Positions 6,855-43,523 of a stretch of DNA of 64,000 nucleotides are shown in pieces. The notes beneath the pieces were generated by a model that was not told where the DNA came from, made no database searches, and was given only the letters and a program-made list of their open reading frames with translations. Both the position numbers and the translations under genes were made by a program. Every line of letters starts with the position of its first letter. Within the stretch, counting starts at the first letter, position 1. Source of the stretch: Halobaculum halobium (GTDB taxonomy: Archaea > Halobacteriota > Halobacteria > Halobacteriales > Haloferacaceae); the NCBI RefSeq assembly GCF_030127145.1, contig NZ_CP126158.1:1302001-1366000 (forward strand), given 5' to 3'.

Positions 6855-6875
6855 TTCCTGCGCCCACGTGTTCGC

Positions 6876-25833: not shown

Positions 25834-26841
25834 TCAGTCGTCGGACTCGACGTGCCCGCCGTCGGCGGCGGCCGTCGGCTCCGACGCCTCCTGTTCGAGC
25901 CGCTTCTGCCAGCGGACCCGCAGGAGGTTGCCGTACATCTGCAGGACGAGCCCGAGCAGAAGCACGAACACGCCCATGTTGATGCCGACGGTCAGCAGGA
26001 TGTCCGTCGGTCCTCCACCGATGGCGATCTCACGCGGCACGGGATAGCCTTCGTCGAACAGGCTCCCAAGCAACACTGAGACGATTCCGATGACGGTCAT
26101 CGCGCCGACGACCGTCGACGCCATGTTCCACGACGGCGACAGCTCGAGCCGCTCGATACCGGTGCCCTCGGTGTCGTCGTCGTGATCCTCGGGGATCATC
26201 GACTTCGGGATGAACGCCTTCACCTCGACCGGGTACAGCGCGGGGTGGAAGCCGTGCTCGAAGATGTGGAACATGACCCCCATCAGCATGATGACGCCCA
26301 GCAGGCCGTGGAACGTGACGAACGCCGCGGCGGCGGTCTTTGTCGCGAACAGGTCCATCACGCCCGTCTTCGACCAGATGAGGATCCCCGAGATCGTCAA
26401 CAGCGTCAGCTCGATCGCGAAGATGAACACGACGCCCTTGCCGATGTACGTGAGCAGCGGGATCTCGTCGGCCGTGCCGCCCGCGAACTGGCGGGCGTTC
26501 GCGTGGCGCTCGTCGGCGTTGCCGAGCAGGAACTGCACGTCCTGGATGAACGCGTCGAAGTCGCCCTTCGACGGCAGGATCTCCCTGAAGTTGCCCCGGC
26601 CGGTGTCGGTCGTCACCATCATCAGCATCCAGAAGACGATGAGCGCGAGCAGCCCGCCGCCCGCGATGCGGTGGACCGCGGAGACGCCCTGAGCGCCGCC
26701 CATGAGACCGACCATCCACCACAGCTCGTCGTTGAACATCAGGCTGTAGCCCGAGAAGAACAGCACGAACACGTCCAGCGCCAGCAGCGTGTGGAACGTG
26801 GTCGTCATCTTGCTGAACTTCCCGTGGTCGAGTTGCGTCAT
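25834..26841 (-). CDS. formate dehydrogenase cytochrome b-type membrane subunit
   Basis: A 335-residue membrane protein at the end of the operon. Hydrophobic segments near 18-38, 55-80, 135-160, 170-195, 245-265 and 280-305 resemble the di-haem cytochrome b subunit of membrane formate dehydrogenases. Histidines suited as haem ligands lie in TTTFHTLLALD, SAVHRIAGG, VTFHGLLGV and MFHIFEHGFHP. It would accept electrons from the ferredoxin subunit and pass them to menaquinone. Two extra helices at the C-terminus and a charged tail are unlike bacterial FdoI. It overlaps the upstream gene by four bases. Confidence 0.85.
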   Translation of the reverse strand: MTQLDHGKFSKMTTTFHTLLALDVFVLFFSGYSLMFNDELWWMVGLMGGAQGVSAVHRIAGGGLLALIVFWMLMMVTTDTGRGNFREILPSKGDFDAFIQDVQFLLGNADERHANARQFAGGTADEIPLLTYIGKGVVFIFAIELTLLTISGILIWSKTGVMDLFATKTAAAAFVTFHGLLGVIMLMGVMFHIFEHGFHPALYPVEVKAFIPKSMIPEDHDDDTEGTGIERLELSPSWNMASTVVGAMTVIGIVSVLLGSLFDEGYPVPREIAIGGGPTDILLTVGINMGVFVLLLGLVLQMYGNLLRVRWQKRLEQEASEPTAAADGGHVESDD

Positions 26842-27308
26842 CGGGTCTCACCTCCGTCGGTCGCGGCGGAGTCGTCTGCGGCGTCGCCGCTCCCAGCGGT
26901 GTCTTCACCGCCGGCTGCTTCCTCGACCCGGCCGCCGTCGGCGGCGACCGCGCTCGACTCAGTCCCCTCACCGGACTGGCGCATCCGACCGGCGAGCCGG
27001 CGGAACGCGCCCCAGTGGAGGAACACCATGAACAGGATGAACACGCCCATGATGACGTCAGCGGCGTGGGTGATCGCGATCAGGAAATCGAGCCAGGCGA
27101 CCTGGTTGCCCGAGGTCCAGTCGGATCCGACGCCGGCGTTGGCGCCCTCTGCGACCGGCTGGATGCGGAACAGCTCCTCGTAGAACACCGCGAAGTCCGC
27201 GGCCCACCACAGGATCAGCGCTGTCACCGCGAGCGCGACGACCGCGTTGATCGCGATCGCCGCCCGCGGGTAGCCCTTGGTCTCCGGGAGGTGCTCTCTG
27301 TAGCTCAT
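26838..27308 (-). CDS. small membrane subunit of the formate dehydrogenase complex
   Basis: A 156-residue protein with two clear helices (about 19-37 and 80-98). A lumen-side loop holds VFYEELFRIQPVAEGANAG. The C-terminus (from about 108) is disordered and acidic. It sits between the ferredoxin and cytochrome b genes with four-base overlaps on both sides, so it is very probably a structural part of the complex. I know no bacterial counterpart; it may be specific to haloarchaea. A histidine in ITHAADVIM could serve a haem or quinone site, which is inference. Confidence 0.75.
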   Translation of the reverse strand: MSYREHLPETKGYPRAAIAINAVVALAVTALILWWAADFAVFYEELFRIQPVAEGANAGVGSDWTSGNQVAWLDFLIAITHAADVIMGVFILFMVFLHWGAFRRLAGRMRQSGEGTESSAVAADGGRVEEAAGGEDTAGSGDAADDSAATDGGETR

Positions 27309-27997
27309 GCGTTGCTCCCCTCGAACTCGTCGGCGTCCTCGCCGAAGATGATCTCCATGGCGACGGTATTGAAGAACGAATCGGAGCCTCGCCGGTCGAG
27401 CTCGTCCGAGATCTCCTCGGCGTCGCCGACGAGCAGCGCGTCGGTCGCGCACTCCTCGGCGCAGGCGGGCCCCTTGCCGATGTCCTGTCGCTCCTCGCAC
27501 ATGGTACACTTGTCCATCGTGCCGCCGCTGCCGAACAGCCGCGCGGAGCCCTCGTCGGAGCCGGGGAACTGCGGCGCGCCGAACGGACACGCGGACAGGC
27601 AGTACTGACAGCCGACACAGAGGTTGTCGCGAACGTCGACGAACCCGTTGTCCTTCTTGATCAGCGAATCCGTCGGGCACACCGACACGCACGGCGCCTC
27701 CTCGCAGTGGTAACACTGCATCGGGATGGCGGTCTCGCCGGGCGAGGAGTCCGCCTGGCCGAGCGCGCCGCCGCTGTTGGTGTTGTACCGCTCCATCGGC
27801 TCCGCCGGCTGTCCCTCCAGCATCGTCGAGATGCTGATTCGCTGTTCGTCCCTGGGCACGTCCCACGTCCGCTTGCACGCGACGACGCACCCACCGCAGT
27901 CGATGCAGGCTTCGACGTCCGGGAAGATGCGAGCATCGTCGCCGGTGCTCATCACCCCCTGACTCATCACCTGCTTGCTGGTTTCGTTAGTTGCCAT
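27305..27997 (-). CDS. formate dehydrogenase iron-sulfur (ferredoxin) subunit
   Basis: A 230-residue protein with four [4Fe-4S] binding sets in the DmsB/FdhB layout: CIDCGGCVVACK, CYHCEEAPCVSVCP, CVGCQYCLSACP and the reversed CTMCEERQDIGKGPACAEECA. It carries electrons from the catalytic subunit to the membrane cytochrome. It has no signal peptide, so it probably rides with the Tat-exported catalytic subunit. The gap to the catalytic gene is six bases. Confidence 0.93.
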   Translation of the reverse strand: MATNETSKQVMSQGVMSTGDDARIFPDVEACIDCGGCVVACKRTWDVPRDEQRISISTMLEGQPAEPMERYNTNSGGALGQADSSPGETAIPMQCYHCEEAPCVSVCPTDSLIKKDNGFVDVRDNLCVGCQYCLSACPFGAPQFPGSDEGSARLFGSGGTMDKCTMCEERQDIGKGPACAEECATDALLVGDAEEISDELDRRGSDSFFNTVAMEIIFGEDADEFEGSNA

Positions 27998-28003
27998 TGG
28001 GAA

Positions 28004-31000
28004 TCACTGAACCGTGCTGTTGTCGCGGACGTCGAAGTCCTTCTGCCGGCCGAAGCCGTCGCGGTCCTGCGGGAACTCGTACGACTCGATGTCGACGACG
28101 TTCTCCGAGAGGCCGTCCTCCTCGACGGGCCGCATCGACAGCTCCTCGACGACCGAGGGCGTCGCCGGCTGGAGTCGGACCATGGACGCCTTCGTCTCCT
28201 GCATCTGGGTCTCCACGTCGTAGCCACGGGAGGTGATCGCGTTCACCGGTTCCCCGATGGCGTACGGCACCGTCCCCTCGGGGTAGCGCTCCTCCAGCGA
28301 TTCGCCCTTGAACATCCCGCCCCAGTGGAACGGGAAGAAGGTCTCGCTGTCGTTCGGGCGGTGGGTGACGCGCGCCTTCACGAGGATCGACCCGCGGTCG
28401 GTCGTCGACGCGACCACGAGGTCGCCGCCGTCGACGCCCAGCCGATCGGCCATGTCCGGGTTGATCTCCACGTACATGTGCGGCTGGAGGTCGGCGGTGT
28501 GCTCGTTCGAACGCGTCTCGGAGCCGCCGCCCTGGTGCTCGACCTGGCGGCCGCTCGTGAGGATCGTCCACTCGCCGTCGCCGGACTGCTCCTCGAACGC
28601 GCCGGCGTCAGTGAGCCGCTGCATGGACTCCTCTTGGGTGACGCTGTTATTCTGGTCGAGGCGGTAGAAGTTCCGCTGCTGGCCGTTCGCGGGCCACTGC
28701 TCGACGAGGTCGGGTCGCGGGCTCTCGATCGGCTCGCGGTGGACCGGCGTCGTGTCGAGGAAGCTCCAGACGACGCCGCGGGCACGGCCGCGCCCCGTCG
28801 GCGCGTCCGGCTGCGGGTTGTCGAACTGGCCGTAGAAGTCCATGTCGTAGTTGGCCCAGTCGTACTTCTGGTTCATCGCCTCGGCGGCGTCAGCGACCGA
28901 CGTGTCCTCGCGGAGCGCGTACTCGTACGGGACCGTCAGCGCGTCCGCGTTGCTCGGGTCGTCCGGCATCGTCGTCGCGAAGCCGGGGTACTGCGGGACG
29001 CCTTCGATCGTGCCGTCCCACCACTCTGGCTCGTACGAGTCGCGAAGCAGGCTGAGGCCCTCCTCGCCCTGCTCGTCGTACGTCGTCTGCATCGGGTACG
29101 GTTCGTCGGTCGCCATCTCCTCCCACTCCTCGGGCGTGGGCGCCTGCACGCCCCACCGGGTGCGGAAGTCCTGCCCCCCGTCGCGGGGGTCCATGTCGTC
29201 GTTCCAGAGGATCGGCGTGCCCGGATGGCCCTCGCCCCAGCACGGCCACGGGAGCATCCAGTACTCGCCGTCGACCGGCGTGCCGGGCGCGTCCGCCTTC
29301 GTGTCCTCGGTGGAGAAGGCGTAGTCGTACTCCAGGTGTTGCTGGAGGCGCGCCGGGTCCTGGCAGTAGCCGATGGTCCGCATGCCGAGGTTGAACTCTC
29401 GGATGACGGACTCGTACGTCGACTTCCCGTTGTACAGCGCCGGACCGGAGCCCCAGTCGAAGTGCTCGCCCATGCCGAGGTGACCCGCGAGTTCCTGCAT
29501 GATCTGCAGGTCGGGGCGGGAGTTGTGTCCCGGCGAGCGAACCGGCTCGGACCACTGGGTCGCGCGGTGGGAGTTTGTCAGCGAACGGTAGTGCTCGTAC
29601 TGGCTGGACGCCGCCAGCAGGACGACTTCCGTGTCGGATTGGTCTACGTCGGCCAGCACCGACGCCACCGACGGGAACACGTCCACGACGACCAGCAGGT
29701 CGAGGTTCTCGATGGCCTTGCGCTGTTTTTCCATCTCCGAGATGGAGTTCAGCGAGTGGCCCCACACGATCGCCGCCTTCAGTTCGTTCGGCTGGTAGAT
29801 CGGCGTCTCGTTGAGCCGGTCCTCCTGCGGGAGCGCGGCGTCGAACCAGCGGGCCACCGTCAGGCCCTTCTGGAACATCATCGAGTTCTCGGCCGGGAAC
29901 GACTCGTCGATGTCGTCGGCGTTCTCGGTGTTGGTCGACTGCCGGACGTACTTCTCCGGCGGCATCGTCCCGTACTCTTCGTACAGTTCGTCGAACTCGA
30001 TGGTCCCCGAGGTCTGGGGCGTGCGCGACCAGACGTCGCACCACCACTGCCACGACCCGGGCGAGCCGACCGAGTAGTACCCCGGCAGGATGTGGCTCGC
30101 GACCGCGAGGTCGGTCGCCCCCTGCACGTTCGCGTGACCGCGCATGACCTGCAGGCCGCCGCCCGATTGGGCGGACGACCCAGACGCCAGCGAGGTCAGC
30201 GCGTACGAGCGGATGTTCTGGGTCCCGTTGTTGTGCTGGGTCCCGCCCATCGCCCACTCGATCTGCATCTTGGGGCTGTGCTCGGCGACCAGATCGGTCA
30301 GTTCCTCGATCTCGTCGGTCGAGAGCCACGTGATGTCCGACACCGTCTCGATGTCGTAGGTGTCGAGGTCGTCCTCGACGTCGGGCCACGCCTGCACGCG
30401 TCCTTCCAACATCTCGTCGTCCAGCTCGCCGCGGTCGCGGAGCTGCTTGATGACCCCCATCATCAGGGCCACGTCCGTGCCGGGGCGCAGGCGGTAGAAG
30501 TAATCGGCGTGGGCCGCGGTCTTGGTGAACCGCGGCTCGACGACGACGATCTTCCCGCCGCGCTTCTGGCCCTCCAGGATGTGCTGCATCGCGATCGGGT
30601 GGGCCTCCGCGGGGTTCTGCCCGATTATCAGATTCATATCGAAGTTCCGATAATCGTTGATCGTGTTGGTCATCGCCCCGTAGCCCCACGTGTTCGCGAG
30701 GCCGGCGACCGTCGTCGAGTGGCAGATGCGCGCCTGGTGGTCGACGTTGTTCGTGCCGAACAGCGACGCGAGCTTCCGGAACGCGTACGACTCCTCGTTG
30801 GAGTGGTGCGCGCTCCCGAGCCACATCGTGCTGTCGGCCCCGTACTCGTCTTTGATCCGGGTCAGCTCGTCGGAGACCGTGGAGTACGCCTCGTCCCACG
30901 AGAGCTTCTCCCAGCCGCCGTCGACCTTCCGCATCGGCGACTTCAGTCGCTTCTCGGAGTGCTCCGTCTCGTAAATGCCCGCGCCCTTCGAGCAGAGCGA

Positions 31001-31273
31001 CCCGTTGTTGACCGGGTGATCTTCCCAGGGCTCCATCCCGACGAAGGAGTTACCCTTCTTTTCGCCGTGGAATCCGCACCCGACCGAGCAGTAGTTGCAG
31101 ATCGTCTTCGTCAGCTCGTTGTGATCTGTGTCTGTTCCGTCCTCTTCTCCCTCGTCGCTCTGCGCCAGCGCTTGTCCCGCGCCGCCGCCACCGAGGGCGA
31201 CCGCGCCGGCCAACGCGCTCGCCTTCATGAACGACCGTCTGTCTAGGTCCAGTGAGACCGGTTCCGTGCTCAT
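28004..31273 (-). CDS. formate dehydrogenase catalytic subunit (molybdopterin oxidoreductase, Tat exported)
   Basis: A 1089-residue enzyme that oxidises formate to CO2 outside the cytoplasmic membrane. A Tat signal (DRRSFMKASALAGAVALGGG) is followed by [4Fe-4S] cysteines C59, C62, C66 and C94. The metal ligand is a cysteine, C184 in ARICHSTTVAGL, next to H185; many bacterial enzymes have selenocysteine here. The C-terminal molybdopterin dinucleotide-binding domain begins near LTSGRQVEHQGGG. ATG 31273 is right because the Tat signal starts there; the open frame continues upstream only by chance. Other DMSO reductase-family substrates cannot be excluded, but C-H at the metal site and the partner subunits favour formate. 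Confidence 0.92.
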   Translation of the reverse strand: MSTEPVSLDLDRRSFMKASALAGAVALGGGGAGQALAQSDEGEEDGTDTDHNELTKTICNYCSVGCGFHGEKKGNSFVGMEPWEDHPVNNGSLCSKGAGIYETEHSEKRLKSPMRKVDGGWEKLSWDEAYSTVSDELTRIKDEYGADSTMWLGSAHHSNEESYAFRKLASLFGTNNVDHQARICHSTTVAGLANTWGYGAMTNTINDYRNFDMNLIIGQNPAEAHPIAMQHILEGQKRGGKIVVVEPRFTKTAAHADYFYRLRPGTDVALMMGVIKQLRDRGELDDEMLEGRVQAWPDVEDDLDTYDIETVSDITWLSTDEIEELTDLVAEHSPKMQIEWAMGGTQHNNGTQNIRSYALTSLASGSSAQSGGGLQVMRGHANVQGATDLAVASHILPGYYSVGSPGSWQWWCDVWSRTPQTSGTIEFDELYEEYGTMPPEKYVRQSTNTENADDIDESFPAENSMMFQKGLTVARWFDAALPQEDRLNETPIYQPNELKAAIVWGHSLNSISEMEKQRKAIENLDLLVVVDVFPSVASVLADVDQSDTEVVLLAASSQYEHYRSLTNSHRATQWSEPVRSPGHNSRPDLQIMQELAGHLGMGEHFDWGSGPALYNGKSTYESVIREFNLGMRTIGYCQDPARLQQHLEYDYAFSTEDTKADAPGTPVDGEYWMLPWPCWGEGHPGTPILWNDDMDPRDGGQDFRTRWGVQAPTPEEWEEMATDEPYPMQTTYDEQGEEGLSLLRDSYEPEWWDGTIEGVPQYPGFATTMPDDPSNADALTVPYEYALREDTSVADAAEAMNQKYDWANYDMDFYGQFDNPQPDAPTGRGRARGVVWSFLDTTPVHREPIESPRPDLVEQWPANGQQRNFYRLDQNNSVTQEESMQRLTDAGAFEEQSGDGEWTILTSGRQVEHQGGGSETRSNEHTADLQPHMYVEINPDMADRLGVDGGDLVVASTTDRGSILVKARVTHRPNDSETFFPFHWGGMFKGESLEERYPEGTVPYAIGEPVNAITSRGYDVETQMQETKASMVRLQPATPSVVEELSMRPVEEDGLSENVVDIESYEFPQDRDGFGRQKDFDVRDNSTVQ

Positions 31274-31368
31274 TGTTTCATGTTGACATTCACCACTGGT
31301 TGATAGCCTATCGTGACATGGCACGCAACCGTACTCCTTTAATCTTCGCCACGATCGTGACTGAATTA

Positions 31369-31384
31369 TTTTGGCCGGCCAAAA
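31369..31384. promoter_or_regulatory. 16-base perfect palindrome between the formate dehydrogenase and HdrA-like genes
   Basis: TTTTGGCCGGCCAAAA is perfectly self-complementary. It sits in the 195-base gap between two divergent genes, about 96 bases from the left start and 85 from the right. Probable operator for a dimeric regulator. Confidence 0.5.
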
Positions 31385-31435
31385 ACAACCGGAAAGATCA
31401 CCCGGGATAATGCAGTCGGGCGGTTTCCTGGCGCA

Positions 31436-31446
31436 AGGTATATAGG
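31436..31446 (+). promoter_or_regulatory. TATA box of the HdrA/MvhD-like gene
   Basis: AGGTATATAGG is centred about 28 bases before ATG 31469, indicating a leaderless transcript. Confidence 0.55.
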
Positions 31447-31468
31447 CTCGACTCCGTTGACTCCGACG

Positions 31469-33619
31469 ATGAACGTCGGGGCATTCGTCTGTTCGTGCGG
31501 GGGGACCTGCGACGTGGACCTGGAGTCGGTCCGCGACGGAGTCCGCGATGTCGACGTCGTCGCGTCGTCCGAGCAGCTGTGCCGGGACGCGCTCCCCGCC
31601 GTCGACGGACTGATCGACGAGTACGACCTCGATCAGCTGATCGTCGGTGCCTGCGACGACGGCTGCAAGGCGACGTTCGACGACCTCGTCGAGCGCAAGG
31701 GGCTGCACCCGGACGCGGCCGCCTACGTCGACCACCGCGAGCGAGCCGGTTGGGTCCACGAGCGCGACGACGCCACCGACAAGACCGCGCGGCTGATCAA
31801 CGCCCGACGAACGGGGCTGGAGTACGAGGCCGCCACGCGAACCGTCTCTCGGGAGGCGGGCGACGGCGTCCTCGTCGTCGGCGACGCCGAGACCGCGGCG
31901 GCGCTCGCCGACTCCGCCGACGTGACGCTGCTCGCGAACGGCGCGGAGTACGCGGACGCAGACGCCGATCTCTCGGACGTCGACATCGCGCGGGGGCGCC
32001 TCGTCGCCGTCGAGGGGCGGTTCGGCGAGTTCGAGGTACAGGTCGAAGCGCGCGTCACCGACGACTGTATCTCCTGCATGAAGTGCGTGAAGGAGGGCCC
32101 CGACGGGATGGTGACGCGCCGCCCCGTCGACATCCACCCGGACGCCCCCGAGGGCGAGTGGACCGAGTGCTGCCCGACCGACGCGATCGACCTGTCGGGC
32201 GTCACCCGCACCGTCGAGGCCGACCAGGTCGTCGACCCCGCGGGCACGTCGACCGCACGCGGCGGCCGGATCGGCTACTACACGGGCCCGGTCGACGCCG
32301 GCACGATCGCCTCCGTCGAGTCGCTGTTAGGCGGGGTCGAGAAGCCGAAGTACCTCGATCTGGAGATGGACGTGTGCGCCGCGGGCGACTCCGGCCAGCA
32401 GGGCTGTACCGCCTGCGTCGACGCGTGTCCGCACGACGCCGTCGATCGACCCGCGGTCGACGAGGTCGAGTTCGACCTGACGGCCTGCGAGAACTGCGGC
32501 GCGTGCACCTCGTCGTGTCCGACGGGCGCGACGTCGCTCCGGGAGCCGTCGAACGAGCGGATCGCCCGCGAGGTCGAGGCGCTGCTCAGCCGCGAGACCG
32601 ACGAGGGCGGCATCTGGCCGTTCACCGGGAGCGACGGCGGCATCGAGACGCCGGTGGTCGCGTTCACCTGCGACGAGCGCGCGGCCGCGGCGCTCGACGA
32701 GTACGGCCGCCGGGCGGCCGCCGGGGAGGACATCACCTACCCGCCGGTGCTCCCGGTGGAGGTGAACTGTACCGACACCGTCGGCGAGGGACACGTCATG
32801 CACGCGCTCGCCGCGGGCGCGGCCGGCGTCGCCATCGTCGGTTGCGGCGGGTCGTGTCTCCACTCCGGCCCGGACCCGAAGGCCGAGCTGGTCGACCGAC
32901 TCAACCGCGCGACGACCGACCTGGGGCTGGGCGAGCGCGTCGCGTTCTTCGCGCCGGACCCGCGCGAACCCGCAGCATTCGCCGAGGAGTTGAGCCGCTT
33001 CACGGAGCTAACGCTCGATCCGACGCCCGTTCCGGAGGGCGAGCACCGCTCGACGGGCGTCGTCCGCGAGGACAAACCCAACCCCGCGTTCAACAGCCAC
33101 GACTGGACGCTCGAGTCGGTCCGGCGACTCCTCGAGTTCGCCGAGCCCGAGCGGGAGGTGATCCGCGGGCTGAAGGACTTCGGCGTGATGTCCGTCTCGG
33201 ACGCCTGCAACCTCACGCCGACGTGTTCGACGCTGTGCCCGACTGACGCGATCCGCCGGACGGACGACGGGAACCTCCAGTTCAACCACGAGGACTGCGT
33301 CAACTGCGAACTCTGTGAGGAGGGCTGTCCGGAGACGGCGATCACGATGGAGCGGGGCCTCGACCTCTCGCGGCTGCCCGAGAACCGGACCGCCGGGGAG
33401 GGCGCCGTCGCCGCCGACGACCCGCGGTGGGAGACGGTCCACGACGGCGAGATGCTGGAGTGCGTCCGCTGTGGCGACCCCTTCACCTCCGCGGCCTCCG
33501 CCGAACACATCCAGTCCGAGGTCGGCAACCTCGTCGAGGGGATCGCCCCGAACTCCGAGCACAGCGTCTTCGAGTACTGCGGCAGCTGCCGCGCGCAGCT
33601 GCTGTTCGACAACAGATGA
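31469..33619 (+). CDS. HdrA-like/MvhD-like multi-cluster iron-sulfur protein
   Basis: A 716-residue soluble redox protein. Residues 1-120 match the HdrA N-terminal domain (VGAFVCSCGGTCDVDLESV, IVGACDDGCKATF, ERAGWVHERD). Residues 133-195 have only a shrunken remnant where HdrA carries its FAD domain. Ferredoxin-type cysteine sets follow at about 200-235, 303-321 and 340-350. Residues 394-497 are an MvhD/FlpD domain (VVAFTCDERA, VEVNCTDTVG, IVGCGGSCLHSG). More clusters lie at about 580-590 and 610-620, and a zinc-ribbon-like pair at C665-C668 with C704-C707. Placement opposite formate dehydrogenase and ahead of a TorD chaperone suggests electron transfer or assembly for that enzyme. Confidence 0.85.
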   Translation: MNVGAFVCSCGGTCDVDLESVRDGVRDVDVVASSEQLCRDALPAVDGLIDEYDLDQLIVGACDDGCKATFDDLVERKGLHPDAAAYVDHRERAGWVHERDDATDKTARLINARRTGLEYEAATRTVSREAGDGVLVVGDAETAAALADSADVTLLANGAEYADADADLSDVDIARGRLVAVEGRFGEFEVQVEARVTDDCISCMKCVKEGPDGMVTRRPVDIHPDAPEGEWTECCPTDAIDLSGVTRTVEADQVVDPAGTSTARGGRIGYYTGPVDAGTIASVESLLGGVEKPKYLDLEMDVCAAGDSGQQGCTACVDACPHDAVDRPAVDEVEFDLTACENCGACTSSCPTGATSLREPSNERIAREVEALLSRETDEGGIWPFTGSDGGIETPVVAFTCDERAAAALDEYGRRAAAGEDITYPPVLPVEVNCTDTVGEGHVMHALAAGAAGVAIVGCGGSCLHSGPDPKAELVDRLNRATTDLGLGERVAFFAPDPREPAAFAEELSRFTELTLDPTPVPEGEHRSTGVVREDKPNPAFNSHDWTLESVRRLLEFAEPEREVIRGLKDFGVMSVSDACNLTPTCSTLCPTDAIRRTDDGNLQFNHEDCVNCELCEEGCPETAITMERGLDLSRLPENRTAGEGAVAADDPRWETVHDGEMLECVRCGDPFTSAASAEHIQSEVGNLVEGIAPNSEHSVFEYCGSCRAQLLFDNR

Positions 33620-33644
33620 CGCCCTCCGCGTCCCGACACACACC

Positions 33645-34277
33645 ATGAGCTCAGACGAACTCGCCGTCTACGACGCCCGGATCGAACTGATCGACTTCTG
33701 CATCGAGGTGTTCCACGACGCCCCGACCGAGGAGTTCCTCTCGCACCTCCTCTCGGGCGACATGCGCACCCCGGAGGACAGCGTGAACGACCACCTCGAC
33801 GCCGGCTTCGAGCACGTCCGGGCGTTCGTCGACGCCCACGAGGACGACGACGTGTCCGAGCTGCGCAGCGACTTGCGGCAGAAGTACACGGAGGTGTTCG
33901 TCGGCCCGCGGCCGCCGGTCCTGCTCCACGAGACGCACTACCGCGACGACACCGAGTTCATCGGCGAAGGGCTCGCGGAGGTGGAGGCGAGCTACGGCGC
34001 CGCCGGCTGGACGCCGCCCGAGGAGTACCCCGAAGAGAGCGACTTCGTCGCCGTCGAACTCGCGTTCCTCCGGTGGCTCGTCACCAAGCAGCGCGAAGGT
34101 CGAGACGAGACGTTCGGCTACGAGCGCGTGTTCCTCGACAACCACCTCATGACGTGGGCCGACGACGCCGCCGAGGACATCCGCGCGGAGACGGACGAAC
34201 CGCTGTTCCTTGCGGCCGGAGAGATCCTCGCCGGGCTCGTCGAGTTCGAGGACGAGATCGTCGCGCAGATGGTGTAA
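33645..34277 (+). CDS. TorD/DmsD family molybdoenzyme chaperone
   Basis: A 210-residue all-helical protein. The family signature is LRQKYTEVFVGPRPPVLLHE followed by THYRD. TorD-type chaperones bind the Tat signal of a molybdoenzyme and hold it until the cofactor is inserted. The likely client is the formate dehydrogenase at 28004. It starts 25 bases after the HdrA-like gene, same strand, probably one operon. The C-terminal half has FLRWLVTKQREG and FLDNHLMTWADD, typical of the second helical bundle. Confidence 0.92.
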   Translation: MSSDELAVYDARIELIDFCIEVFHDAPTEEFLSHLLSGDMRTPEDSVNDHLDAGFEHVRAFVDAHEDDDVSELRSDLRQKYTEVFVGPRPPVLLHETHYRDDTEFIGEGLAEVEASYGAAGWTPPEEYPEESDFVAVELAFLRWLVTKQREGRDETFGYERVFLDNHLMTWADDAAEDIRAETDEPLFLAAGEILAGLVEFEDEIVAQMV

Positions 34278-34765: not shown

Positions 34766-35078
34766 CGTACACTACCCGCGCTGTCAGCGAGACGAGGAGC
34801 AAGGGGACCAACAGCGCGAGCAGTCCGCCCATCAAGATTCCCATGTAGCTGATCGTCGACTCCAGGTGGATCGCCCAGTGCCAGGTGCCCTTGATCTCCG
34901 CGATGACGGCCACCGTCCCCACTGTGAGCAGTGAGAGCCCGAGCAGCGACGCGAGCGTGTACGCGCCAACGCGCACCCAGTACAGCGCGCCGGCGAGCCG
35001 ACCGCGTTCGCCGCCGGACGCGTCAGTCACTTCCCCCGCCCGTCCCCCGCCGTCAGCGGGCGTTGTCGGGCTACTCAT
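34758..35078 (-). CDS. small membrane protein B of a three-gene set
   Basis: A 106-residue protein. A disordered glycine-rich N-terminus precedes two helices (about 36-60 and 76-100), with a loop GTWHWAIHLESTISYMG containing two histidines. ATG 35078 overlaps the upstream gene by eight bases; an in-frame ATG at 35087 is an alternative. The histidines near the membrane face could bind haem or metal, which is speculative. Confidence 0.65.
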   Translation of the reverse strand: MSSPTTPADGGGRAGEVTDASGGERGRLAGALYWVRVGAYTLASLLGLSLLTVGTVAVIAEIKGTWHWAIHLESTISYMGILMGGLLALLVPLLLVSLTARVVYDV

Positions 35079-35301
35079 CGGCTCCACCCCCCGACGCGTC
35101 GTCGATGCCCCTCGTCGTGGCGACGGCCCCTCCGGACGCCCCGTCGGCGTCCGCCGCGTCGTACGATCGGTACGCGTCGTACGTCGCCAGCGCGAGGACG
35201 ACCACGCCGACGCCGAGCACCACGAACGCGGGGCCGAGCGCGAGCGGGAGGTTCGCGTGTGTTCCGCCCATGATACGGGATCGCTCGGTCTGTGGACTCA
35301 T
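35071..35301 (-). CDS. small membrane protein C of a three-gene set
   Basis: A 76-residue protein from ATG 35301 (MSPQTERSRIMGG). One helix at about 20-42 (LGPAFVVLGVGVVVLALATY) and an acidic tail. A second ATG at 35271 would trim ten residues. It is the first of the three genes and divergent from the DyP-like lipoprotein gene, with which it shares a 90-base promoter gap. Confidence 0.6.
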   Translation of the reverse strand: MSPQTERSRIMGGTHANLPLALGPAFVVLGVGVVVLALATYDAYRSYDAADADGASGGAVATTRGIDDASGGGADE

Positions 35302-35391
35302 AGCGTTTGTGTCGGGGAGCCGAGCGCCGTCGCTCGCGGCGCTCGTGACGACCGAACGTTTTTGCCCGCGTACGACGTGACACGTGTTAGA

Positions 35392-36585
35392 ATGCCGTCC
35401 CGACGGAACATGCTGGGGAAGCTCGCGGTCGCTGCCGGGATCGGCGTCGCCGGCTGCACCACCGGCGCCCCGCCCGGGCTCCCGCTCGACGCCAACCCCC
35501 ACTCGGTTCCGAGCAGACAGTTCGCGCAGCGTGACGTACTCCAGCGCGACGCCGACGGCAACGAGCTCCAGGCGCGCCACCGGCGCATCCTCCTGTTGGA
35601 CCTGAAGCGCGAGCCCTCAGAAGATGCCGCAGAAACCGTCGAACGCGCGCTCCGGACCGTGGAGGCGGCGTACGACTGGGCGCCCGACGGGCTGTTTCAC
35701 GCCCTCGCCTGGGGGTCGACGTACTTCGACGACAACGACGCGCTCGGGCGCGTCCCGATCGAGCACCCGGAGGTGCTCACGCGCACCGACGACGAGGACC
35801 TCCAGCACTTCGACGCGATGCTCGTGCTGGAGTCGGACGTGGAATCGCACCTCCCGACCGTAGAGAGCGCGTTGTTCGGCTCGCGCGAGGAACTGAACGG
35901 CGAGCCGGTGGACCACACGCTGGAGAGCGTGTTCCGTCGACGCGACCGCCGGACGGGCTTCCTCGGCGAGGGGCTCCCCGCCGAACACGTCGACGTGGAG
36001 GGACTGGAGGCGGACGCCCCGATGTTCTCCGGGTTCTTCTCGGGGCGCGAGGGGTCTCAGGCCAGCGAGGACCGCGTCGCCATCGACGACGGCCCGCTGG
36101 CCGGCGGCACCACCGCCCACCTCTCGCACATCGCCTTCGATCTCCCGAAGTGGTTCTCCGGCGACGAGGCGAGCCGGATCGAGAAGATGTTCACGCCCGA
36201 GTTCACCGCCGACGACGTCGCTGATCTCGGGACGGACGTGCCGTTCGCGGACGCGGTACGCGAGCACGCTCGCGATCACGGCAGCGTCGGCCACCACGAG
36301 AAGGTCGCGCGCGTCCGTCGGGACGGCGAGCCGCTGCTGCTCCGCCGGGACTTCAACACCGTCGACCACGGCCGGACGGGCGTTCACTTCCTCAGCTATC
36401 AGCGCAAGCTCGCGCACTTCCGACGGACGCGCAAGTCGATGAACGGCTGGTACCTGCGCGACGACCACCCCGACATCACCGACCGCGAGAACAACGGCAT
36501 CCTCAACTTCATCACCACTCGCTCGCGGGCGAACTTCGTCGTCCCGCCGCGGGAGAAGCGGGCGTTCCCGCTGACGATCACTTGA
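35392..36585 (+). CDS. Tat-exported lipoprotein related to DyP-type peroxidases
   Basis: A 397-residue protein. The signal has both a twin-arginine motif (SRRNMLGKLAVAAG) and a lipobox (GVAGC), so it is probably anchored outside the cell membrane by a lipid on the cysteine. The body resembles dye-decolourising peroxidases in its C-terminal half: TAHLSHIAFDLPKWFSG, then HHEKVARVRRDG and GVHFLSYQRKLAHFRRTR, parallel to the family's haem-pocket strand and CYQRDLxRQF segment. The usual GxxDG motif is not evident, so peroxidase activity is uncertain. A haloarchaeal family I recall as DUF7405 looks alike. Confidence 0.75.
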   Translation: MPSRRNMLGKLAVAAGIGVAGCTTGAPPGLPLDANPHSVPSRQFAQRDVLQRDADGNELQARHRRILLLDLKREPSEDAAETVERALRTVEAAYDWAPDGLFHALAWGSTYFDDNDALGRVPIEHPEVLTRTDDEDLQHFDAMLVLESDVESHLPTVESALFGSREELNGEPVDHTLESVFRRRDRRTGFLGEGLPAEHVDVEGLEADAPMFSGFFSGREGSQASEDRVAIDDGPLAGGTTAHLSHIAFDLPKWFSGDEASRIEKMFTPEFTADDVADLGTDVPFADAVREHARDHGSVGHHEKVARVRRDGEPLLLRRDFNTVDHGRTGVHFLSYQRKLAHFRRTRKSMNGWYLRDDHPDITDRENNGILNFITTRSRANFVVPPREKRAFPLTIT

Positions 36586-37205: not shown

Positions 37206-37553
37206 CTACTCCGTCGGCGGTGCGTTCGGCGGTCGTTCGGCGTCCCCGTCGAGAAACACGTTCGCGAACAGGTCGACGTGCAGTCGCAGCAGGCGCTCGG
37301 CCGACAGCCCGGACTCCTCGGCCTGCCGGTCGAGGAACGTCGCCAGGTCGTCGCTCGGGGAGAACCGGACCCGCTCGCCGCCGTCCTCGACTTCGAAGGT
37401 GACCTCCGTGCCGCCGGAGACGAGGTGTTCGATCTCCAGCAGCGCCTGTTCGAGTTTCACCTCCAGCGCGCGCTCGTCCTCCATCATGCGCTGGTCGCCC
37501 CACTCCTCGGCGGCGGCGACGAGGCGGTCGCTCGGCTCGAAGGTGATGGCCAT
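37206..37553 (-). CDS. conserved haloarchaeal protein, helical
   Basis: A 115-residue soluble protein from ATG 37553 (MAITFEPSDRLVAAAEEWGD). The centre is helical and acidic (ALEVKLEQALLEIEHLVSGG), then comes a strand pair with TEVTFEVEDGGERVRFSPSD and a helix with HVDLFANVFLDGD. Its ATG shares one base with the stop of the preceding zinc-ribbon gene, so the two are coupled. Possible role as a partner or regulator; nothing specific is visible. Confidence 0.65.
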   Translation of the reverse strand: MAITFEPSDRLVAAAEEWGDQRMMEDERALEVKLEQALLEIEHLVSGGTEVTFEVEDGGERVRFSPSDDLATFLDRQAEESGLSAERLLRLHVDLFANVFLDGDAERPPNAPPTE

Positions 37554-37690
37554 CAGAACGACACCCCCTGGCCCTCGAACGCCGGGTCCCAGGTCGTTAC
37601 TGTCTCGCACACCGGACACTCCCGGCGAACCTCCCCCTCGGGAGAGCCGACGCGCGTCATCGTGCCGCAGTCGACGCACTCGTACTGCAT
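37553..37690 (-). CDS. 45-residue rubredoxin-like zinc ribbon protein
   Basis: From ATG 37690 to TGA 37553-37555. MQYECVDCGTMTRVGSPEGE then RRECPVCETVTTWDP: two CxxC pairs on knuckles 18 residues apart, the shape of a single zinc ribbon. Stop and next start overlap (TGATG), so it is translationally coupled to the helical protein downstream. Confidence 0.65.
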   Translation of the reverse strand: MQYECVDCGTMTRVGSPEGEVRRECPVCETVTTWDPAFEGQGVSF

Positions 37691-37785: not shown

Positions 37786-38052
37786 TTACTCCTCGGGCGG
37801 CCACGCCTTGGGCGCGGGGTCGGACTCGCCGAGTTCGCCCAGGTAGACGAACAGGAGGGCGACGATCCCCGCGAGCACCGCGACGCCGGCGAGGCCACCG
37901 ACGGCGTTCTGCCCGACGTACGACCCGGAGAACGCCCAGATACCCTCACTCGCGGCGAACGTCTGCACGGCGATGTACGCGCACCACAGGCCGATCCCGG
38001 TCACCATCGCGGTCAGCACCCAGCTTTGCGATACCGCGTTTCGAAGTCCCAT
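37786..38052 (-). CDS. two-helix membrane protein, hypothetical
   Basis: An 88-residue protein from ATG 38052 (MGLRNAVSQSWVLTAMVTGI). Helices lie at about 11-33 and 49-71, with an aromatic loop GIWAFSGSYVGQNAVGG between them and a short acidic tail. It looks like an accessory subunit of a membrane complex, but no partner is evident next to it. Confidence 0.65.
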   Translation of the reverse strand: MGLRNAVSQSWVLTAMVTGIGLWCAYIAVQTFAASEGIWAFSGSYVGQNAVGGLAGVAVLAGIVALLFVYLGELGESDPAPKAWPPEE

Positions 38053-38150: not shown

Positions 38151-38984
38151 TCAGTTTGCGTCCCCGTCGGGAGCGCCCCCCGGCTCGTCGAGGGCCCACT
38201 CGGACGCCTCGGCGGCCTCCGCCAGCGGGACGAACTCCCAGCCGGCGCGCTCGGCCCACGCGCGCTCGCCGGCCGACTCGACGCCGACGAGTACCATCCG
38301 CTCGGCGTAAAACATCGAGTTCGGGCCGACTTCCTCCAGTCGCTCGCCCGGGCCGGTCCCAGTGCCGTTGAAGAAGTCGAGGTCCAGGCGGTTGTCGCGC
38401 TGGTACTTGTTGATCACGTGTGCGTCGACGTCGCCGACGATCCCGACGTAGTCGGTCCACGTCTCGGCGTCCGCGAGCGCGGCGTGGAGGTTCGACAGCG
38501 AGCGCACCGCCCGGTACGACAGCGCCATCGTCATCTCGCTTTTCGCCTCGCCGTGTGGGCCGGTCGCCTCGGGCTGCGCTTGCGTCTCCTCCTCGCGCGC
38601 GTCGGCGGAGACGCCGCCCCCGCCCCCGCCATCGCGGGGGATGCCGACCGGCTTGTCGTCGTCCGCGTACGGCACGCGCGGCGTCGACGAGGACAGGTCC
38701 GCGTCGAGGTCGTCGTCGTACTCGGCCGGCGCGGGCTCGTCGGCGCCCAACTCCTCCGCGCGGGCGCCGCCAGAGCGCCAACCGTCGTCGCCGTCCGCGC
38801 CACCCGCTTCTGGGCCGGCCGGCGGCGACGAGGGCGCGTCGTCGTCGGCCACGTCATCTGCGTCGATCGATTCGTCGGCGTCGCCCCCGCTGTCGTCGCC
38901 CCAGAACCAATCGCCGCGGTTGGGCCGCTCGTCGTCGTCGTCGGGCTGTACGTCGAGGTCGTCGAGGTCGATCTTGTCTGGCAT
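38151..38984 (-). CDS. acidic conserved haloarchaeal protein (DUF7124-like)
   Basis: A 277-residue protein. The first 145 residues are very acidic and apparently disordered, with runs of D, E, G and P. The folded C-terminal part starts near MTMALSYRAVRSLSNLHAAL and carries WTDYVGIVGDVDAHVINKY, then FYAERMVLVGVES. I remember a haloarchaeal family with this core as DUF7124, function unknown. It follows the cysteine-less aldehyde oxidoreductase homologue by 12 bases on the same strand, so the two may be one operon. Confidence 0.7.
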   Translation of the reverse strand: MPDKIDLDDLDVQPDDDDERPNRGDWFWGDDSGGDADESIDADDVADDDAPSSPPAGPEAGGADGDDGWRSGGARAEELGADEPAPAEYDDDLDADLSSSTPRVPYADDDKPVGIPRDGGGGGGVSADAREEETQAQPEATGPHGEAKSEMTMALSYRAVRSLSNLHAALADAETWTDYVGIVGDVDAHVINKYQRDNRLDLDFFNGTGTGPGERLEEVGPNSMFYAERMVLVGVESAGERAWAERAGWEFVPLAEAAEASEWALDEPGGAPDGDAN

Positions 38985-38996
38985 CGCTGTGTCGTG

Positions 38997-40796
38997 TCAG
39001 TCGTGGGATTGCGGTCGGTCGGCGGGCCCGTCGGGCGTGCCGGTCAGTCCGGACGTGTCCGTTGGGTCGAGCGCGTCGGTCGGGAGCCCGAGCGCACCAC
39101 AGCGCTCGGGCGTCGGGAGTCCGCGGTCGTCCCACCCGCGGGCGGCGTAGTACGCGTCGAGCAGCCGGTCGAACCCCTCGCGGTCGACGGCGCGGCCGGC
39201 CGCGGGCGCCTCCCCGGTCGGGAGCGGCTCGGCGAACTGCGCCGGGAGCGCGTCGGCCTCGCGGTCGAACCCCTCGCGGGCGTTGAACAGCCGAACGAGC
39301 GTCCACACGCGGTCGCCGACGCGTCGGAGGTCGTCGTGCGGGACGCCGAGCGCATCGAGCCACTCCGCGCCCAGGTCGTCCCACAGCGTCTCCCCGGCGA
39401 AGTCGTCGACGACGAGGCTCCACAGCACCGCGCGGGCGTTCTGTGCGCCGACGACGGCCTCGACCCGGCGGGCGGTGTCCCAGTCCTCGCGGAACACTTC
39501 TTCTTCGATCGGGCGAGCGCGGCGGTGGCAGCCGCCGCGATCGGCTGTCGCGTACGCCAGCGCCATCCCGAGTGCGCCCCGGGGGTCGTAGGCCGGGAGC
39601 TCCATCGACTTCACCGTCGGCACGTAGTCGTCGCCGCCGCGGCGCTCGGCCGCTTCGTCGACGCCCTCCGCCAGCGCGTCCGCGAGGTCGTCGTCCGCCT
39701 CCCGACGAGCGATGCGCTCGATCAGCTCGCGGGCGCCGTCCTCGTCGCCGAACTCGAAGTCGACCTCGTTCGCGCGGACGGCCCACGCGACGGCGTTGCC
39801 CGCGGTGATCACGTCGACGCCGAGGCGGTCGCACGCCTCACCCAGCGCCGCGACCGCGTCGAAGTCGTCCATCCCGAGCCCGGCGCCGAGCGTCATCGGC
39901 GCGGCGCCGCGGGGGACCGTCTCGCCGTCGTCAGTCTCGACGCGGAAGCCGCCTGGCACGTCCTCGTCGGGGTGTTCGCGCTCGTGTGCGGCCGCCGCGG
40001 CCGCCTCGATCCCGATGCCGTCGACCTCGTTCGCGGTGTCGCGCCAGCCGTTCGCGGGCAACACGCCCACCTCGGCGGCGAAGTCGATCGACTCCAGAGT
40101 CTCGCCGGCGGTCTGCCACTTGCCGGCGTCGTCGGCGGCGAACGCCGCCTCGTACTCCGCGTGGAGGTCGGCGAGTTCCGCGGGCACGTCCGGCGGGTCG
40201 CCGCGGGCGACGACCGCCTTCAGGTGCTTCGCGCCCATCACTGCGCCCGCGCCGCCGCGGCCGGCGTGGTGGTCGCCGGCGTCGGAGGCGACGGTCGCGT
40301 ACGCGACCTCCCGCTCGCCGGCCGGGCCGACGCACGCGACCGCCGCGTCGGGGTACGCCTCGCTGGTCTCGACGGTGTCCGCACCCGCGAGGTCGCCGGC
40401 GGACTCCAGTCGGGGCTCGCCGTCGCCGACGACCAACGCCGTCGGCTCGTCGGCCGCGCCCGTCACGAGCACGCCGAGACACTCCGGCAGCGACCCCGCG
40501 AGCCGATCCGGAAACGTCCCGCCGGAGTAGGAGTCGAGGAACGCGCCCGTCAGCGGCGACTTCGTCACGGCGGCGTAGCGCGACTCGCCCGGGAGCGCGC
40601 CCGACAGCGGGCCGAGCATGAATCCGAGGAGGTTCTCGGGGCCCCGCGGGTCGGCCCCGGGCGAGAGTTCGTCGTACAGGTACCGGGCCCCGAGCCCCTT
40701 GCCCCCGAGGTAGCGGCGACGCCACTGCTCGGGGACCGGTTCGAACGCGGCGGTCCCCGCCGAGAGGTCGACGCGGAGCACCCGGGTCCGTGTCAT
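38997..40796 (-). CDS. aldehyde ferredoxin oxidoreductase homologue lacking the iron-sulfur cysteines
   Basis: A 599-residue AOR-family protein. The pterin-binding N-terminal domain is well kept: YLGGKGLGARYLYDEL, GFMLGPLSGALPGESR, GAVMGAKHLKAVVARG. The later AYDPRGALGMALAYATADRG segment is also kept. Yet no CxxCxxxC cluster occurs in the middle domain, where the homologue at 11662 has CHSCPVACKK. The fourth ligand position (SFDICKFNAF there) reads NARAVLWSLVVDDF here. Only scattered single cysteines remain. It may bind tungsto- or molybdopterin without a cluster, or be non-catalytic. ATG 40796 was chosen; a GTG at 40802 is possible. mobA lies divergently upstream. Confidence 0.88.
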   Translation of the reverse strand: MTRTRVLRVDLSAGTAAFEPVPEQWRRRYLGGKGLGARYLYDELSPGADPRGPENLLGFMLGPLSGALPGESRYAAVTKSPLTGAFLDSYSGGTFPDRLAGSLPECLGVLVTGAADEPTALVVGDGEPRLESAGDLAGADTVETSEAYPDAAVACVGPAGEREVAYATVASDAGDHHAGRGGAGAVMGAKHLKAVVARGDPPDVPAELADLHAEYEAAFAADDAGKWQTAGETLESIDFAAEVGVLPANGWRDTANEVDGIGIEAAAAAAHEREHPDEDVPGGFRVETDDGETVPRGAAPMTLGAGLGMDDFDAVAALGEACDRLGVDVITAGNAVAWAVRANEVDFEFGDEDGARELIERIARREADDDLADALAEGVDEAAERRGGDDYVPTVKSMELPAYDPRGALGMALAYATADRGGCHRRARPIEEEVFREDWDTARRVEAVVGAQNARAVLWSLVVDDFAGETLWDDLGAEWLDALGVPHDDLRRVGDRVWTLVRLFNAREGFDREADALPAQFAEPLPTGEAPAAGRAVDREGFDRLLDAYYAARGWDDRGLPTPERCGALGLPTDALDPTDTSGLTGTPDGPADRPQSHD

Positions 40797-40906
40797 CGTC
40801 ACCGTGGAAACGGCCGACGCCGATAAGCGTTTGCCAGGGGGCGAGTCGCGCTGGCTCGACCGGTGTTCCCACAGGCGTTTTCACCCCTCCCGACGCACCT
40901 CCGCAC

Positions 40907-41569
40907 ATGCCCCGGTACGCCGCCGTCGTCGCCGGCGGACGCTCGACCCGCTTCGGCGACCGCGACAAGGCCGTCGCCGATCTGGCCGGCACGCCGATGA
41001 TCCGTCGCGTCGCCGACCGGCTAGCGGGCGCGACCGACCGGCTGGTCGTCAACTGCCGCACCGACCAACGGGCCGCCATCGAGGACGCGATGGCCGGGTA
41101 TCCGAACCCCGTTCGCTACGCCGAGGACCCCGATCCCGACGAGGGGCCGATGGCGGGTATCCGGACCGTTCTCCGCGGCGTCGAGCGGTGGGGTGGCCCC
41201 GACGCCCCCGCGTTCGTCGTCGCCTGCGACATGCCGTTCGTCGACCCCGCGCTCGTCGGCGTGCTGTTCGATCGGATCGACGGACGTGACGGCGACGACG
41301 ACGCGACTCTGGACGCCGTCGTTCCCCGGGTCGACGACGAGTGGTTCCAGACGACCCACGCCGCCTACCGCGCCGGCCCGATGGCCGACGCCTGCGACGC
41401 CGCCCTCGCGCGCGGCGACCGCAAGATCATCGCGCCGCTGTTCGATCTCGACTACGCGGTGATCGACGACGACGAACTCGCCGACCTCGGCGTCGACGGC
41501 CGGAGCTTCGAGAACCTCAACACCCGCGAGGAGTTCGAGGCGGCGGGAGCGGCGTTCGCGGCGCGGTAG
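40907..41569 (+). CDS. mobA: molybdenum cofactor guanylyltransferase
   Basis: A 220-residue nucleotidyltransferase that attaches GMP to molybdopterin, making the bis-MGD cofactor used by enzymes such as formate dehydrogenase. The GTP-binding opening is VVAGGRSTRFGDRDKAVADL. The metal-binding VACDMPFVDP and LNTREEFE near the end fit the family. It is divergent from the AOR homologue and convergent with yqeC. Confidence 0.92.
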   Translation: MPRYAAVVAGGRSTRFGDRDKAVADLAGTPMIRRVADRLAGATDRLVVNCRTDQRAAIEDAMAGYPNPVRYAEDPDPDEGPMAGIRTVLRGVERWGGPDAPAFVVACDMPFVDPALVGVLFDRIDGRDGDDDATLDAVVPRVDDEWFQTTHAAYRAGPMADACDAALARGDRKIIAPLFDLDYAVIDDDELADLGVDGRSFENLNTREEFEAAGAAFAAR

Positions 41570-41574: not shown

Positions 41575-42333
41575 CTACCCCTCGATCACGTCGACGATCC
41601 GGTCCTCGCCGAGCGCCGCGAGCACCACCCGGTCGAGCCGACCGGACTCGTCGGCCTCGAACGCCGCGGCGGCGACCTCGCGCGCCGCGGCCTCGTCGTC
41701 GGCGTCGTCCACCTTGTTCACGAGCGCGACCGCCTCGGCGTCGGCGGGCGCTTCCTTCAGGCCGCCCTCGGTCGAGGCGAGCACTCGGCCGACGGCTTCG
41801 GCGGTCACCCGTTCTCCCACGTCGATCCCCGCGACGGCGGCGACCCGCTCGGGTCGGTGAACGCGCTCGTCGGTGAGCGGTTCGCCGACGACGTGCGCGG
41901 AGGCGATCGGGACGACGGCGTCGGCGCTCGCCGGGATCTGCGGCTCGCGGTCGTCGGGCGCCTTGAACTCACGCATCCGCGCGCCGTCGGCCTTCACGAG
42001 CACGGGGCCGTCGTGAGCGGCCGCAAGGTCGTCGACGGCGTCGGTGTCGTAGCCGAGGTACCGGTCGTCGCGCTCGCGTTCGGGAACGATCCCGAGCGGC
42101 CAGTCGACGGCGATGTCGGCGTCCGCGGCGTGGCGCGTCAGCGCGGCGACCGCGTCGGGGTCGACGACGACGCGCGCGACGTGCTCGTCGAAGATCGGAA
42201 TGCGGACCGTCGCGGTGACGACCGCGCGGTCGAGGCGGTTCGCGAGCGTGTAGAGGGTCGTCTTCTTCCCGCCGGCGCCGACGACGCAGACGAGGCCCTC
42301 GGTCGGGAGGGCCTCCTCGGGAGCGATGGTCAT
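41575..42333 (-). CDS. yqeC: YqeC-like P-loop protein (selenium-dependent molybdenum hydroxylase accessory)
   Basis: A 252-residue protein with a modified P-loop, VCVVGAGGKKTTLY, near residue 15 and the conserved VLVKADGARMREFKAPDDREP-type centre, then VALVNKVDD. In bacteria YqeC is linked to selenium-dependent molybdenum hydroxylase maturation; the role in haloarchaea is unproved. Here it follows mobA convergently. It overlaps a membrane protein gene upstream by four bases. Confidence 0.85.
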   Translation of the reverse strand: MTIAPEEALPTEGLVCVVGAGGKKTTLYTLANRLDRAVVTATVRIPIFDEHVARVVVDPDAVAALTRHAADADIAVDWPLGIVPERERDDRYLGYDTDAVDDLAAAHDGPVLVKADGARMREFKAPDDREPQIPASADAVVPIASAHVVGEPLTDERVHRPERVAAVAGIDVGERVTAEAVGRVLASTEGGLKEAPADAEAVALVNKVDDADDEAAAREVAAAAFEADESGRLDRVVLAALGEDRIVDVIEG

Positions 42334-42875: not shown

Positions 42876-43397
42876 TTACTCGACCTCGGCGGCCGCCGCG
42901 ACCGCCGCCTCCACCTCGTCGGTGTCGGGGAACGTCAGCGGCTCCGTCGCCTTCCACGTGTAGGAAACGACCCCGTCCGGCGCGACGACGAACACCGCGC
43001 GGTTCGCGATCCCACGCATGATCGACTCCTCGCGCCGGACGCCGAAGTCCGCGATGATCGAGTTGTTGAACCCCGAGACGAGCGGGTACTGGAGGTCGTA
43101 CTCGTCCATGAACGCCAGCAGCGACCACGGCGAGTCGACGCTGACGCCGTACAGCGGGGCGTCGAGGTCCGCGAGGTCAGCCTTCCAGTCGCGGAGCTCG
43201 CACAGTTCCTGCGTGCAGGTGCGCGAGTAGACGCCCGGATAAAACGCGAGGACGACCGGGCCGTCGTCGAGCGCGTCGCTCAGCGAGAACTCGCTCACGT
43301 CGCCGCCCGTGTAACTGCCGCGCTCGGTGCTTGCGGCGGCCTCGGGGGTCGCCATCGGTGCGGTTACTTCGGGTGCCTCGTCGCCGTCGTCGAGCAT
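42876..43397 (-). CDS. peroxiredoxin, PrxQ/BCP-like
   Basis: A 173-residue thiol peroxidase. The active-site segment is VVLAFYPGVYSRTCTQELCE. The peroxidatic cysteine is C61 and a second cysteine, C66, lies five residues on, the spacing of PrxQ-type enzymes with a nearby resolving cysteine. FYPG replaces the more usual FYPxDFT. Later parts (YGVSVDSPWSLLAFMDEYDL, RAVFVVAPDGVVSYTWKAT) complete the thioredoxin fold. It probably reduces H2O2 or organic peroxides in the cytoplasm. Confidence 0.92.
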   Translation of the reverse strand: MLDDGDEAPEVTAPMATPEAAASTERGSYTGGDVSEFSLSDALDDGPVVLAFYPGVYSRTCTQELCELRDWKADLADLDAPLYGVSVDSPWSLLAFMDEYDLQYPLVSGFNNSIIADFGVRREESIMRGIANRAVFVVAPDGVVSYTWKATEPLTFPDTDEVEAAVAAAAEVE

Positions 43398-43523
43398 GGT
43401 CGCTCACTGCGTCGCCGGCGGCTAAACCCTTCGTACCGCGGTAGCCCGGTTGGTCCGAGGCGTCGTTTCTGGTGACGGTGTGTCGGAGGCGACCGCGGAG
43501 CCTCCCGCGGCGGCACCGGCGGG

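Follow-up and report, generated by a model that had tools for sequence, protein, structure and literature searches.

A haloarchaeal clade of AOR/WOR-family proteins without iron-sulfur cluster ligands and its genomic association with FDH and YqeC

The window (the whole stretch of 64,000 nucleotides analysed here) encodes an AOR/WOR-family protein that has lost all four cysteine ligands of the [4Fe-4S] cluster. The loss marks one haloarchaeal clade, and genes of this clade, for which we use the working name AORx, are associated in the genomes with formate dehydrogenase (FDH) and with the molybdenum-cofactor accessory protein YqeC. The reading that we prefer, with a probability of roughly 0.4, is that AORx is unable to act as an aldehyde:ferredoxin oxidoreductase and has been recruited to the FDH system as a carrier or scaffold of the Mo/W-pterin for FDH maturation. 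The gene and the sites discussed below are as follows.

38997..40796, minus strand: AORx, clusterless AOR/WOR-family protein of 599 aa (open reading frame, Pfam AFOR_N and AFOR_C, AlphaFold2, Foldseek)
39945..39968, minus strand: expected CxxCxxxC ligand site, codons 277-284, with the HPDEDVPGGF region instead of the Cys loop (alignment, all orthologues)
39903..39911, minus strand: R296 and A298 in place of E311 and the catalytic E313, codons 296-298 (alignment)
39813..39830, minus strand: retained DxxGxD pterin motif, DRLGVD, codons 323-328 (alignment)
39525..39527, minus strand: retained H448 of AOR (GGCH), codon 424 (60/60 rows)
39405..39422, minus strand: W459...D464 in place of D489 and C494 of the DxxGLC pterin/cluster motif, codons 459-464

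The open reading frame runs from 40796 to 38997 with the ATG start used here, an alternative GTG lying at 40802; a plus-strand reading of the same interval does not give the protein. Both Pfam domains of the family were matched (AFOR_N, 202 bits; AFOR_C, 261 bits; cut-offs about 30 and 27). The AlphaFold2 model built from a 70-sequence alignment had a pLDDT of 92.9 and a pTM of 0.93, and was used instead of an earlier model from 20 sequences (pLDDT 60.8), which was set aside. In Foldseek, it matched P. furiosus AOR (1aor) with a TM score of 0.88 and an rmsd of 2.5, and all its significant PDB matches were AOR-family proteins. The predicted fold is intact and, with the two AFOR domains, places AORx in the AOR/WOR family.

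The [4Fe-4S] cluster is the route of electrons out of AORs. Its ligands in aldehyde:ferredoxin oxidoreductase, C288, C291, C295 and C494 (in the numbering of P. furiosus AOR, also used below for E313 and the other family positions), were all absent from 60 of 60 AORx rows in our alignment, as the sequence-only reading had claimed for the protein in the window. These rows represent 58 distinct genes, orthologues from further haloarchaeal families having been added. All four cysteines were retained in the four sister sequences and in the 26 other AORs of the same alignment. D277 and V280 of AORx stand opposite C288 and C291, at the third site the alignments differ, giving either a gap or F284, and the fourth is D464, within VLWSLVVDDF.

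The same reading had named replacement cysteines elsewhere in the protein as a finding that would speak against it. The 60-row alignment contained no new conserved Cys set that could hold a replacement cluster. Several single candidates were considered and rejected: C423 and C322 are family positions that are Cys in cluster-bearing AORs too, C155 is Cys in 7 of 20 cluster-bearing AORs as well, the conservation of C106 is incomplete, and a CGxC motif is restricted to a subset of AORx sequences, mostly from Halorubrum. Asp464 as a non-Cys ligand was rejected as well, since the remaining three ligands would still be absent.

E313 is the proposed catalytic acid/base of AOR. It is present in all four sisters and all 26 other AORs; in AORx this position is A, G or S, and position 311 is R in every one of the 60 rows. 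Together with T243, Y427 and H448, these two glutamates surround the W site of AOR (PMC12096430). Among the second-shell residues T243, E313, Y427 and H448, only E313 was lost (60/60 rows): T243 was kept in 59 rows and H448 in 60, and position 427 was Y in 50 and F in 10. R76 was kept in 58 of 60 rows. The earlier statement that the pterin-binding motifs are kept holds for domain 1 and for DxxGxD, which is mostly conserved across the rows, but not for domain 3, where DxxGLC has become WxxxxD, with W at 489 and D at 494 in 60/60 rows.

Three further positions, N93, R182 and A183, are Y, H and H in AORx. N93 and A183 bind Mg via their main chain (PMC12096430). Y93, H182 and H183 are also found in the cluster-bearing sisters and W489 in the cluster-bearing protein of genome G376, so that Y93, H182, H183 and W489 (or F/Y) all occur already among cluster-bearing relatives. 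The changes at 93, 182 and 183 therefore need not abolish cofactor binding. Of the sites compared in the alignment, only the cluster ligands, position 311 (E311R), the lost E313 and position 449 (R) carry changes seen in AORx alone. Two arginines, R296 and R425, enter the active-site region.

Scanning genome contigs yielded 80 loci. About 31 haloarchaeal orthologues of AORx were found in it, 56-91% identical and all without the cluster cysteines; the nearest (89-91%) are in Halobaculum. More distant matches keep these cysteines, except at single sites in three bacterial sequences. These three long-branch members of the family (L074, L075 and L081) have the patterns CCCS, CCAC and CCDC, and a partial change of the cluster site may thus have occurred elsewhere in the AOR family.

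The sequence-only reading had proposed aligning haloarchaeal paralogues to see whether the loss defines a clade. It does: in quick maximum-likelihood trees, AORx was monophyletic (SH-aLRT 100), its sister was a haloarchaeal clade with all four cysteines (SH-aLRT 97), and the next branch was the non-haloarchaeal archaeal AOR of G376, also with all four (SH-aLRT 98). Across 295 genomes of the phylum, the only matches at E <= 1e-140 were haloarchaeal AORx and sister sequences and the protein of G376. The cluster loss has a single origin.

The many lost catalytic residues, and one orthologue with a split ORF (L031), are what one might expect of a decaying gene or of an assembly or annotation artefact. 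This explanation is ruled out by conservation and by dN/dS, and we give it practically no weight. Between close orthologues dN/dS was 0.14-0.23, and the clade is under purifying selection; the remodelled residues are invariant in 58 distinct orthologues, AORx is present in 39 genera, and its predicted fold is confident. The gene shows some variation in length and number. AORx of G009 (L109:3652-6738) has a long open frame of 1029 aa, and the proteins of G009, G008, G108 and G171 each give two partial profile matches, which an insertion may explain. Two copies occur in G192 (L090 and L091) and in G181, both large genomes with five FDH-alpha matches each.

The window contains the whole set of AORx, MobA-like, YqeC, TorD-type and FDH-like genes:

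25834..26841, minus strand: cytochrome b561-type membrane subunit (PF01292)
27305..27997, minus strand: FDH beta-like multi-cluster iron-sulfur subunit (PF13247; FDH3_beta 143.9 bits, below cut-off)
28004..31246, minus strand: FDH-alpha-like molybdopterin oxidoreductase (PF00384, PF01568, PF04879; ORF 28004-32137, start approximate)
31457..33619, plus strand: HdrA/FlpD-like iron-sulfur protein (PF02662 and Fer4 domains; partial NCBIfam HdrA matches)
33315..34277, plus strand: TorD/NarJ-type molybdoenzyme chaperone (PF02613, 74.8 bits; coordinates of the ORF, true start later)
37206..37679, minus strand: p157, conserved small protein of the AORx cluster (no family match)
37786..38052, minus strand: p88, small protein of the AORx cluster (no family match)
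38151..38984, minus strand: acidic protein with DUF7124 (PF23439), downstream of AORx
40904..41569, plus strand: MobA-like guanylyltransferase, divergent from AORx (PF12804, 111 bits; likely Met start at 40904, ORF from 40790)
41575..42333, minus strand: YqeC, molybdenum-cofactor accessory protein (TIGR03172, 166.5 bits, cut-off 73)

AORx and the MobA-like gene are arranged head-to-head, and YqeC lies beyond the latter. NCBIfam MobA matches to the MobA-like protein were below cut-off, as was the TIGR01591 match of the FDH-alpha-like protein (433.6 bits, cut-off 666). The acidic DUF7124 protein had been suggested as a partner of AORx. It does adjoin AORx in many loci, but it is absent from most of them and is therefore a weaker lead than YqeC, MobA or FDH. 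Two other genes of the window can be mentioned. A DUF7405 protein (34885-36585, plus strand; cluster c14) recurs near AORx in several loci. A hydantoinase/oxoprolinase B-like gene (43177-45321 and 43364-43888, both minus strand) shows an apparent frame change near 43.9 kb: its C-terminal portion translates into meaningless arginine-rich sequence, and the gene seems to go on in another frame, which appears to be a frameshift or a sequencing error.

We compared the surroundings of AORx genes with those of cluster-bearing AOR genes, most of the latter from AORx-bearing genomes, with about 9 kb of flank on each side. Genes fetched twice were merged, and the AORx fragments L031 (frameshifted) and L033 (partial) were left out of the cluster-bearing table of 33 rows, giving 60 AORx and 27 cluster-bearing loci. 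FDH, YqeC or MobA was found within 9 kb at 50 of the 60 AORx loci as against 2 of the 27 others (Fisher 1e-11, a value that ignores kinship). Within the same distance, FDH was seen in 42 of 62 AORx locus rows, YqeC in 30, TorD in 21, HdrA in 20 and MobA in 12, many of the flanks being short. Genes in the loci were called by composition and identified around AORx by their homology with a limited set of references; a clustering of all ORFs was dropped since it was swamped by antisense ORFs of this GC-rich genome. The arrangement around AORx differs by lineage while the same partner set recurs. For 64 of the 110 AORx genes a YqeC gene lay within 6 kb, and since these pairs show each of the four possible relative orientations, a single inherited operon does not account for the link. 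AORx is thus linked both to cofactor genes and to FDH, the putative client enzyme, as would be expected of a Mo/W-cofactor maturation factor; the association alone fits a maturation factor, an FDH subunit, a regulator or a pathway enzyme alike.

Of 194 haloarchaeal genomes with a completeness of 90% or more, 108 had AORx and 138 had YqeC. Every one of the 108 AORx genomes had YqeC, 56 genomes had neither, and none had AORx alone. These counts are not independent, and kinship was handled only by a comparison within genera, the genus being known for 178 of the 194 genomes: 11 genera hold both species with the two genes and species without either, and none holds a species with AORx without YqeC. 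FDH-alpha was over the cut-off in 104 of the 108 AORx genomes, and the other four had an FDH-alpha-family protein below it. AORx is not needed for every FDH, since 36 genomes with an over-cut-off FDH lack it. In some AORx-less genomes (for example G036, G125, G150 and G166), YqeC is close to FDH.

The role of YqeC is not yet clear in the literature (PMC2276186, PMC11448449). A selenium link of AORx through YqeC, along the lines of the SelD-YqeB-YqeC selenium-dependent molybdenum hydroxylases, was considered and rejected. SelD was over the cut-off in only 14 of the 108 AORx genomes (19 of 194 overall), with no SelD match in G000, and where coordinates were compared it lay away from AORx, on a stretch of its own beside a separate YqeC copy. 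The AORx-YqeC link is therefore independent of selenium. Some haloarchaea (for example G154, G016, G051 and G106) have two YqeC copies, one by SelD and one by AORx, which suggests selenium and non-selenium subfamilies.

AORx might instead be a subunit or regulator of FDH, docking on it as a pseudoenzyme with or without pterin and having no part in cofactor assembly. Its lost catalytic residues would suit such a protein, as would the position of FDH genes only 65-250 bp from AORx in some genomes, including on the same strand (for example G033 and G141). Yet the one partner that always accompanies AORx (108/108), YqeC, belongs to the cofactor genes, and 12 of the 62 locus rows have MobA nearby too. 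AORx furthermore adjoins two different FDH types, one of about 710 aa and longer ones of about 1000 aa that include an HdrA-linked type, a pattern easier to reconcile with maturation of both types than with a fixed subunit. We regard the subunit explanation as rather unlikely.

Another unlikely explanation is that AORx is a pterin-dependent catalyst of C1 compounds, for example formaldehyde or formate, working with no net electron export or with direct transfer to a partner. In its favour are the retained T243, Y427 and H448, the strong constraint on the clade, and the presence beside AORx, in about ten loci, of genes for a CobW GTPase and a Zn-type formaldehyde-dehydrogenase-like protein. Against this, every AORx lacks E313 and E311, the glutamates that AORs retain around the W site (PMC12096430), and the protein has no cluster, no gained Cys and, by Pfam, no fused redox domain. 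The sequence-only reading had left three options: another electron acceptor, no net redox, or a cofactor-binding or regulatory role. The first, AOR chemistry with merely a different acceptor, is disfavoured because E313 and E311 were lost along with the cluster. A cofactor-binding accessory role is favoured by the recurrence of MobA as a neighbour and by the fact that AORx never occurs without YqeC and an FDH-alpha-family protein.

The proposal of a redox-disabled pterin scaffold thus draws on the loss of the cluster and E313, the largely kept pterin side, the company of genes for making, protecting or using bis-MGD, and the precedent of E. coli YdhV described below. We infer that AORx would bind Mo/W-(bis-)molybdopterin as a carrier, store or scaffold and would hand this cofactor to FDH maturation. 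MobA, with YqeC and the TorD-type chaperone, would then guanylylate the delivered cofactor, which would be inserted into FDH. The loss of the domain-3 DxxGLC (now W...D) and the presence of R296 and R425 in the active-site region speak against pterin binding. In its more specific form, in which AORx holds the bis-molybdopterin Mo/W cofactor and supplies it to MobA, assisted by YqeC, so that bis-MGD can be made and FDH loaded, the proposal is doubtful. If it were true, AORx would be an unrecognised cofactor-biosynthesis protein and a concrete partner for YqeC outside selenium metabolism, so that this orphan family would gain a selenium-independent role. A clade that is conserved across haloarchaea and tied to FDH and cofactor genes, yet has neither cluster nor catalytic acid, would also uncouple cofactor binding from redox catalysis in this family.

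With P. furiosus AOR and the WOR family, AORx shares the fold, both Pfam domains, R76, T243, Y427, H448 and DxxGxD; it differs in the absent [4Fe-4S] ligands, the replaced E313 and E311, and the change of DxxGLC to WxxxxD. Its closest relatives in the tree (SH-aLRT 97-100), the sister sequences L105-L108 and the G376 protein (L125), share Y93 with it, the sisters also H182 and H183 and the G376 protein also W489. Unlike AORx, they have all four cysteines, E311 and E313. No FDH, YqeC or MobA was found at these five loci, within flanks of only about 2.5-6 kb.

The sequence-only reading had reported a second homologue in the window, at 11662-13590, with CHSCPVACKK and a fourth Cys. This minus-strand gene does encode that motif and DICKF, and its product is a close full-length homologue of Haloferax volcanii WOR83 (9q1t; 1209 bits). 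WOR83 is a haloarchaeal WOR like AORx, but it is a cluster-bearing class I WOR from which AORx is distant in the tree. A ThiS-domain protein is encoded about 4 kb from the WOR83-type gene (6765-7541, plus strand). In a 2026 survey, a ThiS-like neighbour of some class I WORs is named WorX and given a predicted role in pterin biosynthesis (PMC13328260).

E. coli YdhV, an AOR-family protein of unknown reaction, contains bis-Mo-MPT and is devoid of the usual second-shell residues (PMC9103625, PMC12096430). In vitro, MobA converted the bis-Mo-MPT from YdhV to bis-MGD, which activated apo-TorA, a MopB enzyme (PMC9103625). YdhV resembles AORx in being an AOR-family protein without the usual second-shell residues. 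It differs in belonging to another WOR clade and in having its own Cys ligand to the metal, and no maturation role has been described for it in these two papers (PMC9103625, PMC12096430).

In the main texts of the open-access literature we met no WOR clade described as wholly clusterless and no mention of such a link to FDH or YqeC. According to the 2026 survey, which covers 92 WOR clades, there is very little variation in the cluster and in the residues of the W site (PMC13328260), and a 2025 review describes only partial cluster changes, in P. furiosus WOR4 and WOR5 (PMC12096430). In WOR4 a Cys is changed to Gly, the cluster is of the 3Fe-4S type and activity was not detected; the cluster site of WOR5 consists of three Cys and one Asp (PMC12096430). 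Both resemble AORx in their altered cluster site, but they still bear an iron-sulfur cluster, whereas AORx is without any Cys ligand. The characterised WORs in the literature covered all bear an iron-sulfur cluster, and the clusterless AORx clade departs from them.
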